A DNA stretch of 33,310 bases from NCBI GenBank assembly GCA_003972955.1, contig QOAQ01000136.1, positions 1-33,310 of the forward strand, in the 5' to 3' direction. The position numbers and the translations under genes are program-made. This document shows positions 18,826 through 22,862 of the stretch, piece by piece; within the stretch, counting starts at the first letter, position 1, and every line of letters starts with the position of its first letter. Origin of the DNA: Aquificaceae bacterium. GTDB taxonomy: Bacteria; Pseudomonadota; Gammaproteobacteria; Thiotrichales; Thiotrichaceae. The notes under the pieces are model-generated. The model made no database searches. It saw only the letters and a list, made by a program, of their open reading frames with translations, and had not been told where the DNA came from.

Positions 18826-21198
18826 ATGAGTAAAAATATTATTTGGTTTAATGACCTTGGTATGGATGATGTCAATAAGGTGGGTGGCAAAAATGCATCA
18901 TTAGGGGAGATGATTAGTCGTTTATCGACAATGGGTGTTTCTATCCCTAATGGCTTTGCAACAACGACCTATGCCTATCACGGTTTTTTAGAGAAAAATC
19001 ATTTAATAGAACGCATTAACGACCTGCTTAAAACCTTAGATGTTGATGATATTGCCGCGTTGACACAAGCAGGTGCTGATATTCGCGCATGGATTATGGC
19101 GGCAAATTTACAGCAAGATTTATTGGATGATGTGACCACCGCGTATCAGCAAATGGTGGCAGAATCAGGGGGCGAGCTTGCGGTTGCTGTACGCTCTTCC
19201 GCAACGGCAGAGGACTTGCCAGATGCTTCATTTGCAGGTCAGCAAGAGACCTTCCTGAATGTGCGCGGGCTGGATGAAATTATCGCGGCAATCAAAGAAG
19301 TATTTGCCTCTCTGTATAATAATCGTGCTATTTCTTACCGTGTGCATCAAAATTTTGATCACAGTAAAGTACTGTTATCCGCAGGTATCCAAAAAATGGT
19401 ACGCAGTGATATTGGTGCAAGTGGGGTGATGTTTACGCTAGATACAGAATCAGGCTTCCGTGATGCTATCTTTATAACAGGGGCGTATGGCTTGGGTGAA
19501 ACTGTAGTACAAGGCTCGGTCAACCCCGATGAATTTAATGTATACAAGCCCAATATCGAGGCAGGGCGACCTGCTGTTATAAAGCGTCATTTAGGTGAAA
19601 AAGCCATTGAAATGGTGTACTCCGATGCGGCGGGGCATGATAAATCGTGTATTGTGCGTGACGTAGAGGAGGCACGGAGAAATAAATTTTGTATTAATGA
19701 CGCGCAACTCGAAGAGCTTGCCAAACAAGCCATGACCATCGAAAAACACTATGGTCGCCCGATGGATATAGAGTGGGCGTTAGATGGTGGCAATAATAAG
19801 CTTTATATTGTACAAGCTCGCCCTGAAACGGTGGAGAGTCAAAATACGGGGAATATTGTTGAGCGTTATCAGTTACAAAAAGAAGGTGAGATTTTAGTTG
19901 AAGGTCGCGCCATCGGGCAACGTATTGGGCAAGGTGTGGCGAAAGTCATCAAAAGCATAGAGCAAATGGATGAGATTCAAGAGGGCGATGTCTTAGTAAC
20001 CGATATGACCGACCCCGACTGGGAGCCAATAATGAAACGTGCCTCTGCCATCGTCACCAACAGAGGCGGGCGCACCTGTCACGCCGCGATTATCGCACGC
20101 GAACTAGGTGTCCCTGCAATTGTTGGTTGTGGTAATGCCACTGCTAAAATAACCACAGGTCAAATGGTGACGGCATCGTGTGCGAGTGGTGATACAGGTA
20201 TTGTTTACGCAGGTGAACTTGAATTTGAACATATCAAAACCGATACAGGCACACTACCCGAATTACCCGTAAAAGTAATGATGAACGTAGGCAATCCATC
20301 GCGTGCTTTCGCATTTGCACAAATTCCCAATGAAGGCGTAGGTTTAGCGCGCCTAGAATTTATCATCAATAATATGATTGGTGTGCATCCTAAAGCACTA
20401 CTCGGATACAGTGATTTAGCCGATGATATAAAACAGCAAGTCGATAAAAAAACAGCAGGGTATAGTGACCCTGTAAGCTTCTATGTCGATAAATTAGTAG
20501 AAGGCATTAGCACATTAGGGGCAGCTTTTGCACCTAAACGAGTGATCGTGCGGATGTCCGACTTTAAAACCAACGAATACGCGAATTTACTGGCAGGTGA
20601 TCTCTACGAACCACACGAAGAAAACCCTATGATCGGTTATCGCGGTGTTTCCCGCTACTTATCCACCGAATTTCGTGAATGTTTTGAATTAGAATGCCGC
20701 GCGATAAAACGTGTGCGTAACGACATGGGCTTGACCAATGTAGAGATCATGATTCCCTTCTGTCGCACTTTAGAAGAAGCACAACAAGTCACCGAGCTAT
20801 TAGCTGAAAATGGTTTAAAACGCGGGGATAATGGACTGCGTATTATGATGATGTGCGAACTCCCCTCCAATGCCGTATTAGCCGAAGAATTTCTAGAATA
20901 CTTTGACGGCTTCTCCATCGGCTCAAACGATATGACACAATTAACACTAGGCTTAGACAGAGACTCAGGTTTAATAGCGCATTTATTTGATGAACGGAAT
21001 CCAGCGGTTAAAAAAATGCTAGAAATGGCAATAACAGCCTGTCATAAACAAGGAAAATACATCGGCATCTGCGGACAAGGCCCTTCCGATTATCCTGACT
21101 TTGCCGAGTGGTTGTTAGAGCAGAAAATTAGCTCCTTATCGTTAAACCCCGATACAGTGGTGGATACTTGGTTGTATTTGGCGGAGTCGCAGAAGTAG
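18826..21198 (+). CDS. ppsA: Phosphoenolpyruvate synthase
   Basis: [72 protein letters not shown]. Confidence 0.97.
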
Positions 21199-21206
21199 CA
21201 CGAAAT

Positions 21207-21246
21207 AGTATCAAGCTGTATTTTATAAATACAACTTGATACTTTT
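21207..21246 (+). terminator. Rho-independent-type terminator after ppsA
   Basis: AGTATCAAGCTGTATTT...AAATACAACTTGATACT stem followed by T tract, 8 nt past the ppsA stop. Confidence 0.75.
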
Positions 21247-21247
21247 A

Positions 21248-21407
21248 CCTGAATCCGTGAGGCAACTACGGTATGATGAACAAGCTATTGATTCCACAGT
21301 GATTTAAAAAATACCCGCTTAACCTATGGGTGAAGCTAAGATTTGTTAATTTCACTGTGAAACCAATATCTTATCCCTCATATCCGCATTTGCCTCACGG
21401 ATTCAGG
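21248..21407. mobile_element. MITE-like 160-bp palindromic element with TSD
   Basis: Perfect 18-bp TIRs CCTGAATCCGTGAGGCAA (21248-21265) / TTGCCTCACGGATTCAGG (21390-21407), flanked by direct repeat TTTTA (21243-21247 / 21408-21412). Interior imperfectly self-complementary; no ORF. Confidence 0.85.
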
Positions 21408-21409
21408 TT

Positions 21410-22240
21410 TTATTTACCAACAAACACAAGCACCGAAAGATAAGCCCAAATCGCTAAGTGTCCAATACAAGCTATTTTATATCGCTTTAATAATTTATCA
21501 GGATGAATGCTACTGATAATAAAAGGTCGTCCGTCTTCTGGTTGGCTGATGATATGCGTGGCAGGTTCTTGGTAGCTCATTTCTAATTCTTCATCGACCA
21601 TGCGTTCTGCGCTGGCTCGGGCGGTTTGGAATTCGTCGGGGTCTATTTTGCCATTGTTATTTTTATCGAAGTAATCTAAAAAACGGAATTGGTTGCGTTT
21701 TAATTCTGCGAGTTTATGACTAATTAAGTTGTTTCTTTCAAACTCTGTACGGTGTTGTTTGAGTGTTTCTAAATTCCCTAAAACATAAATAGTTTCGCCA
21801 GGGAATATTGCCCAGTAATAGTGCATATTGTAGCTTTTAAGAGGGGCGATAACTTCAGCATAGCGTGGGTCGATGGTGCAGCGTCCTTCGTCGTCATGCA
21901 ATAAAAAACCTGCGGATGAGGTGCGATAAAAATTACGAAGCCATACGCTTGGTGGTAGTTCTAAATGTCCTCTGGCGACTTCATTATCGTATAAACTGGT
22001 TTTTCCTTCTAGCTCGACATAACCTTGTGCGGCAGATTTTAGCTGAGCAGGTGAGGTGTCACTAAGCAAACGATAGCGACGAAAAAATATCACGGCTAAA
22101 AATAGGCTTAGTATCGCTAATGTGGCGATATATACGGACTTTTTATTATCATTAGCCATTAAAAAGACAGCGATAATAAGCAAAGGGTACAAGAAGGAGC
22201 TTGATAACGAGATCAAATGACCTTTAATGCGTGTATACAT
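21410..22240 (-). CDS. GIDE-like membrane protein with EF-hand
   Basis: Partner of lemA; canonical EF-hand loop DKNNNGKIDPDEF (21629-21667); GRPFIISS near C-terminus; start taken at MYTRIKGH. Confidence 0.65.
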   Translation of the reverse strand: MYTRIKGHLISLSSSFLYPLLIIAVFLMANDNKKSVYIATLAILSLFLAVIFFRRYRLLSDTSPAQLKSAAQGYVELEGKTSLYDNEVARGHLELPPSVWLRNFYRTSSAGFLLHDDEGRCTIDPRYAEVIAPLKSYNMHYYWAIFPGETIYVLGNLETLKQHRTEFERNNLISHKLAELKRNQFRFLDYFDKNNNGKIDPDEFQTARASAERMVDEELEMSYQEPATHIISQPEDGRPFIISSIHPDKLLKRYKIACIGHLAIWAYLSVLVFVGK

Positions 22241-22241
22241 G

Positions 22242-22284
22242 CTAGTACTCCAATAATATTGTATTGATGGAGTACTAGTACTGG
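22242..22284 (-). repeat. Second copy of CCATCAATACAATATTATTGGAGTACTAG repeat with adjoining imperfect palindrome
   Basis: 27 of 29 match to 145-173; spans the lemA stop codon and the lemA-GIDE gap. Confidence 0.8.
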
Positions 22285-22862
22285 GCTTTAGCACCAAATT
22301 CTGCTGATATATCAATATCTTTCATTTCTTCTTGACGAAATTCCATTAAATCGAAGGCTTTAAAATTGAAAAGGCTGGCAACTAAATTGTCGGGAAATTG
22401 TTCGATGCGGGTGTTGCAGGTGTTTGCGGTGTCGTTATAAAACTCACGACGGTCGGAGATGCTTTCTTCTAAGGTGGTGATGCGGGTTTGTAAACGTAAA
22501 AAGGCATCGCTGGCTTTTAGCTCTGGGTAATTCTCTGCAACCGCAAATAGCCCATTTAAACCGACTTCAAGCTGTTGCCCTGCGTTACTTATCGCAGCAA
22601 TATCTTTTGATTTTAACGCCGATTCCACCAAGTTACGCGCTTTAATCACCTTTTCTAAGGTTTCTTTTTCATATTGCATGTGCTGTTGGCAGGTGTGGAT
22701 AAGCTTTGGTAATTCACTATTACGTTGCTTGAGTAAAATATCGATATTACTCCATGCTTTTTTACTATTATTTTTTAGCGTTACAAGATGATTGTAAAGG
22801 CTAACTCCCCAAAGAACAGGGGCGATAATAATACCTGCAAAAATGATAAGTCCTACGTTCAT
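22275..22862 (-). CDS. lemA: LemA family protein
   Basis: N-term TM, YNHLVTLKNNSKKAWSNIDILLKQRNSELPKLI, ENYPELKASDAFLRLQ, YNDTANTCNTRIEQFP. Confidence 0.94.
   Translation of the reverse strand: MNVGLIIFAGIIIAPVLWGVSLYNHLVTLKNNSKKAWSNIDILLKQRNSELPKLIHTCQQHMQYEKETLEKVIKARNLVESALKSKDIAAISNAGQQLEVGLNGLFAVAENYPELKASDAFLRLQTRITTLEESISDRREFYNDTANTCNTRIEQFPDNLVASLFNFKAFDLMEFRQEEMKDIDISAEFGAKAQY

Follow-up and report, generated by a model that had tools for sequence, protein, structure and literature searches.

A hairpin-forming MITE family that shares its terminal inverted repeats with IS1380-family insertion sequences, found behind ppsA in a deep-sea bacterium

The 160-bp element lying between ppsA and a convergent gene in the stretch of DNA analysed here (33,310 nucleotides, referred to as the window) is mobile DNA, a real transposable element, and with a probability of roughly 0.88 it is a miniature inverted-repeat transposable element (MITE) recognised and inserted by an IS1380-family transposase acting in trans. 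It has the attributes of a bacterial MITE, being short and non-coding, having perfect terminal inverted repeats (TIRs) in common with an autonomous insertion sequence (IS), occurring in many copies with target duplications, and leaving sites unoccupied in relatives. The initial annotation of the window had proposed a non-autonomous MITE mobilised in trans, which is supported by the many copies, the 5-bp duplications and the IS1380 elements with the same ends; added to it here are the IS1380 family itself, the spread over multiple taxa, the covariation of the hairpin arms, a wobble bias toward one strand and an IHF-like motif. The IS1380-linked MITEs constitute a real and apparently undescribed family, of an ordinary element kind with one unexplained feature, the strand bias.

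The MITE occupies positions 21248-21407, and judging from fold energies its minus strand is the better-folding 'RNA strand'. The sequence and a TIR pattern scan place the 18-bp left TIR (CCTGAATCCGTGAGGCAA) at 21248-21265 on the plus strand and the right TIR, its exact inverse (18/18), at 21390-21407 on the minus strand, and copies of the TTTTA duplication, which has no strand, abut them at 21243-21247 and 21408-21412. The length, the perfect TIRs and the flanking TTTTA pair are exactly as first described, as is the location of the stop codon of the convergent gene (TTA on the plus strand, 21410-21412), which the ORF list places within the right duplication. The 160 bp contain no ORF of 80 aa or more, and the element is not itself an autonomous IS1380 member, as no transposase matching PF13701 or NF033539 is encoded. 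The family's most conserved stretch is the central part of the hairpin (21306-21347, no strand assigned), where column conservation among 142 copies is mostly 0.9-1.0. A single arm carries, at 21281-21293 on the minus strand, the IHF-like motif AATCAATAGCTTG (consensus WATCARNNNNTTR), a candidate site judging from the consensus match; the match recurs on the same strand, mostly at one position, in 126 of the 142 copies, compared with 1.8% of shuffled copies when either strand is counted.

The ppsA gene (18826-21198, plus strand) encodes a 790-aa phosphoenolpyruvate synthase with matches to Pfam PPDK_N, PEP-utilizers and PEP-utilizers_C, and at its 3' side an inverted repeat forms a terminator-like hairpin (21204-21246, plus strand), the 20-nt arms of which (21204-21223 and 21227-21246) are 90% complementary and precede the insertion. 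The convergent ORF (21410-22315, minus strand), drawn from the ORF list and Pfam, has weak GIDE and EF-hand matches; its earlier designation as a GIDE gene agrees with the clear LemA gene beside it but not with its Pfam GIDE score of 16.9 bits, which is below the cut-off of 23.6. Removing the element and one TTTTA in silico restores the joined sequence ...CTTGATACTTTTATTTACC, as had been claimed, and therefore the T-tract TTTTATTT has been split by the insertion. The further claim of an insertion into the ppsA terminator is upheld as to the hairpin and the split T-tract, but a consensus terminator scan called no canonical intrinsic terminator at the insertion site, and 'ppsA terminator' accordingly denotes here a terminator-like hairpin plus T-tract. 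In the proposed sequence of events, the element would have landed between ppsA and the convergent gene, dividing the T-tract behind the ppsA hairpin and leaving a 160-nt hairpin between the two genes. Transcripts of the plus strand would then contain the element hairpin followed by the old TTTTATTT tract, a combination that may substitute for the disrupted terminator.

The host, a deep-sea bacterium represented by a 1.78-Mb assembly in 164 contigs that is 70% complete (G000), contains at least 40 copies of the element, 23 of them at 96-100% identity, and we infer that the family may be active at present. When up to 3 mismatches are allowed, this assembly contains the TIR 18-mer 49 times, versus 0 for a reversed control. 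Around a dozen of the host copies are situated at the ends of contigs, where near-identical repeats would be expected, and the MITE copies help to explain the break points of these metagenome assemblies. Eight host copies lacking most of one TIR (L007, L008, L011, L012, L015, L016, L019, and L022) break just inside that TIR, at points where contigs also terminate; assembly gap closing is probable and true truncation possible, and these copies were not used as evidence for a biological loss of one TIR. Family matches were obtained in 10 of 58 genomes, the host included, and in each of three relatives the copies number in the tens, so that the copy search proposed in the initial annotation was productive in both host and relatives; a search of a plasmid collection gave no match to the element. 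Accordingly, this is neither a single-copy sequence nor one found at the same place in all relatives, and its TIRs do occur on IS elements. One 161-bp copy, from Ca. Desulfobulbus rimicarensis (L175), is 95.7% identical to copies in a Thiotrichaceae metagenome-assembled genome (MAG), which would reflect either interphylum transfer or a misbinned contig.

Among the loci fetched across genomes, 71 insertions were collected, each with both TIRs and a match at 4 or more of the 5 flanking bases. A perfect 5-bp duplication accompanies 61 of these, with an A/T content of 93%, a consensus of TWWWA, T as the first base in 50 and A as the last in 45. Element length is 158-163 bp in 56 of the 71, with a few near 108 and 210 bp, and a fixed module of ∼50 bp underlying length classes of 108, 160 and 210 bp was rejected, since the ∼50-bp inserts of the longer forms differ between lineages. 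The longer forms measure 209-213 bp (L137, L218 and L229; L205 and L207) and carry their ∼50 extra bases inside the palindrome, the sequence differing between Thiotrichaceae and an Osedax symbiont. With respect to sites in relatives, the rplU-ispB intergenic region (L089) is occupied in the host and element-free in five congeners, where it is too diverged for a single duplication to be read, and the readable flanks of ppsA in four congeners (G001, G002, G004, and G007) and of the GIDE-like gene in two (G002 and G007) are element-free as well. In the congeners examined, ppsA and the GIDE-like gene were not seen side by side. The empty sites sought by the initial annotation are thus represented by element-free flanks and the rplU-ispB site, but the exact ppsA site with a single TTTTA was not found among the relatives.

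The same TIR flanks IS1380-family transposase genes in about ten bacterial groups, as found by an exact-pattern TIR scan of genome contigs and then of all fetched loci; because these loci were chosen by their TIR, they establish that IS1380 elements use such an end and do not give the frequency with which they do so. A Methylococcales MAG contains a complete IS of 1656 bp with these TIRs, a TTATA duplication and an IS1380 transposase, a Fodinibius contig of 1674 bp has the TIR at each end and an IS1380 transposase gene, and in Ca. Venteria ishoeyi an IS1380 transposase lies within an element bearing these TIRs. All three transposases match PF13701 as well as NF033539, the latter at 301-328 bits (cut-off 180). 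On contigs from Marinobacter, Desulfobulbaceae, Magnetococcales, and Polaromonas the TIR points outward from IS1380 genes. Within the host's own family, the MITE-rich genome G023 has decayed IS1380 genes with internal stops near the ends CCTGAATCCGTGACTTCA and CCTGAATCAGTGACTTCA, and its MITEs bear the ends that lie, exactly or nearly, beside these decayed genes. At one locus of that genome (L277, 10519-10800), a 76-bp piece of one IS1380 end lies just upstream of another, TATTA separating the two, a pattern of related elements inserted in tandem or one inside the other.

Through these identical ends, the MITE family gains a plausible transposase family. A 5-bp duplication together with IS1380-type ends, both read from sequence, would place the element among those mobilised by IS1380 transposases. 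An IS1380-family DDE transposase would recognise the MITE via the common CCTGAATCCGTGA... ends and insert it into A/T-rich 5-bp targets, producing duplications of the TWWWA type. The transposase gene with the same ends that had been predicted exists elsewhere, also in a genome of the host's own family, but no IS1380 transposase was found with the PF13701 and NF033539 profiles in the host's assembly, which breaks at these repeats, and the ORFs next to unpaired TIRs of the host are ordinary genes in which no transposase was recognised. Since the MITE is non-coding and the assembled genome contains no IS1380 partner, the transposase would have been supplied in trans, from an IS that is unassembled or has since been lost. 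Beyond the TIR, the interior of the MITE has no evident homology to IS1380 ends, and the MITE therefore need not be a deletion derivative.

Within the IS1380 family, IS1247 is described as 1672 bp long with an inverted repeat of 16/13 and a 5-bp duplication (PMC3281130). The MITE resembles that family, whose complete member in this analysis measures 1656 bp, in its common TIR and A/T-rich 5-bp duplication, and differs in its 160-bp length, its missing transposase and an interior that is not evidently IS-derived. Closest in kind are the Correia elements of Neisseria (CREE/NEMIS), MITEs that form hairpins, measure 104-108 or 153-157 bp, contain an IHF site and show effects of RNase III (PMC2649163; PMC2229807); like the present family, they are short non-coding hairpins with long TIRs, a high copy number, an IHF-type motif, and expected hairpin transcripts. 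The length classes are similar too, the present family being mostly 158-163 bp long with a few members near 108 and 210, but its ∼50-bp length differences vary between lineages, unlike those of Correia elements, and its TIR is different; where Correia elements have a TA target, the duplication is TTTTA in the window and of the 5-bp TWWWA type family-wide. The link to IS1380 sets the present family apart as well, as does the experimental demonstration of RNase III cleavage for CREE. The ERIC/IRU elements of enterobacteria are also imperfect palindromes, 127 bp long with a reportedly orientation-dependent effect on mRNA, but have TA at their termini, a 7-bp TIR and an unrelated sequence, and no IS partner is named for them (PMC2229807). 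TIMEs, miniature elements derived from Tn3 whose mobility was shown by trapping (PMC4133298), are comparable as MITEs assigned to a parent family via the TIR and have duplications of 5-6 bp, but their ends are of the 38-bp Tn3 type, their length is 262 bp and they are usually single copy. In the open-access literature searched, no earlier account linking the present MITE family with IS1380 was found, and the TIR string appeared solely in an unrelated paper.

The self-complementarity noted in the interior extends to the whole element, which folds end to end on the plus strand at -68.1 kcal/mol (z = -11; none of 200 shuffles reaches this stability) and at -88.7 kcal/mol on the minus strand. The minus-type strand is the better-folding one in 69 of 71 copies, with a mean of -80.6 versus -62.2 kcal/mol. 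In a set of 18 diverse elements, whose pairing was defined by aligning the DNA folded back on itself with G.T and A.C given equal treatment, covariation of the hairpin arms clearly exceeds that of the shuffled and slid controls: 85.4% of arm cells are paired versus 74.1% when shuffled, 40 pairs are altered on both sides versus 22.4, and the covariation score is 0.366 versus 0.168, with slid controls at or below 0.121. Transition-type mismatches read as G.U in 155 cells on the window minus strand against 20 on the plus strand, a count that could lean through the orientation of distant elements by similarity to the window copy, and distinct wobble column states number 39 (minus) and 15 (plus), the pairing having been chosen without wobble bias. 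Single distant elements are asymmetric as well, for example 9:1 and 12:2 in Alcanivorax, which is independent of the choice of orientation. T-runs follow the hairpin in 26 and 19 of 142 copies on the two strands, with no clear bias.

A fixed structural or regulatory repeat, of the REP or terminator type, would not be a transposon, and the nearly exclusively intergenic placement of the 142 distinct insertions (3 possibly inside genes, as called by a simple ORF rule) fits such a repeat; the clean 5-bp duplications of differing sequence at unrelated sites, the near-identical recent copies, the unoccupied orthologous sites and the TIR common to IS1380 make it highly improbable. Alternatively, the family would be no mere passive MITE but would have one strand kept as a structured RNA (a 3'-UTR processing or stability element, or a terminator) and source copies selected for their fold, in parallel with reports for ERIC and NEMIS. 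The covarying arms, the wobble asymmetry and the near-uniform preference for folding on the same strand all argue for this, as does the orientation of copies between codirectional genes, where 54 have the better-folding strand in sense and 30 in antisense orientation (binomial p about 0.01, uncorrected for relatedness). Gene 3' ends within 20 nt of the two sides of the element differ weakly, however (26 versus 13, p = 0.05), many wobble columns are common by descent, and Rfam yields no family above its gathering score, with long-hairpin miRNA models alone matching, far below cut-off. Moreover, rare, recent transitions at paired positions divide evenly (46 preserve pairing and 43 disrupt it, p = 0.83), so that single copies change freely with respect to RNA folding and RNA selection on individual copies is not supported. 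We therefore consider a retained structured RNA somewhat unlikely.

The even split of recent substitutions is what neutrality predicts if the wobble bias is without function and stems either from one ancestral sequence or from strand-biased mutation or hairpin template switching in source copies, an origin that we consider fairly probable. Long palindromes are known to convert their own arms, which also yields apparent covariation. Less readily accommodated by such an origin are the same-strand wobbles at different columns in distant lineages (Alcanivorax, Desulfuromonadales, and Chromatiales), the switching between G.U and U.G at one pair among distant lineages, and the occurrence of C-to-T as well as A-to-G type routes. 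The strand bias is nevertheless more likely due to ancestry or source-copy mutation than to RNA-level selection, and the fullest form of the latter, in which a mobile hairpin retains one strand for an RNA function in gammaproteobacterial and desulfobacterial lineages alike, wobble pairs interrupt the palindrome in DNA without loss of the RNA fold, and insertion in sense is preferred, is unlikelier still. Were the wobble bias to reflect RNA-level selection, the long-standing idea that hairpins of MITEs work within mRNA would gain support from sequence. A further short palindromic repeat, of the CCCTTCGAC...GTCGAAGGG type, lies beside MITE copies in the flanks of two host loci (L003 and L004), and a similar repeat is found at the start of L276.
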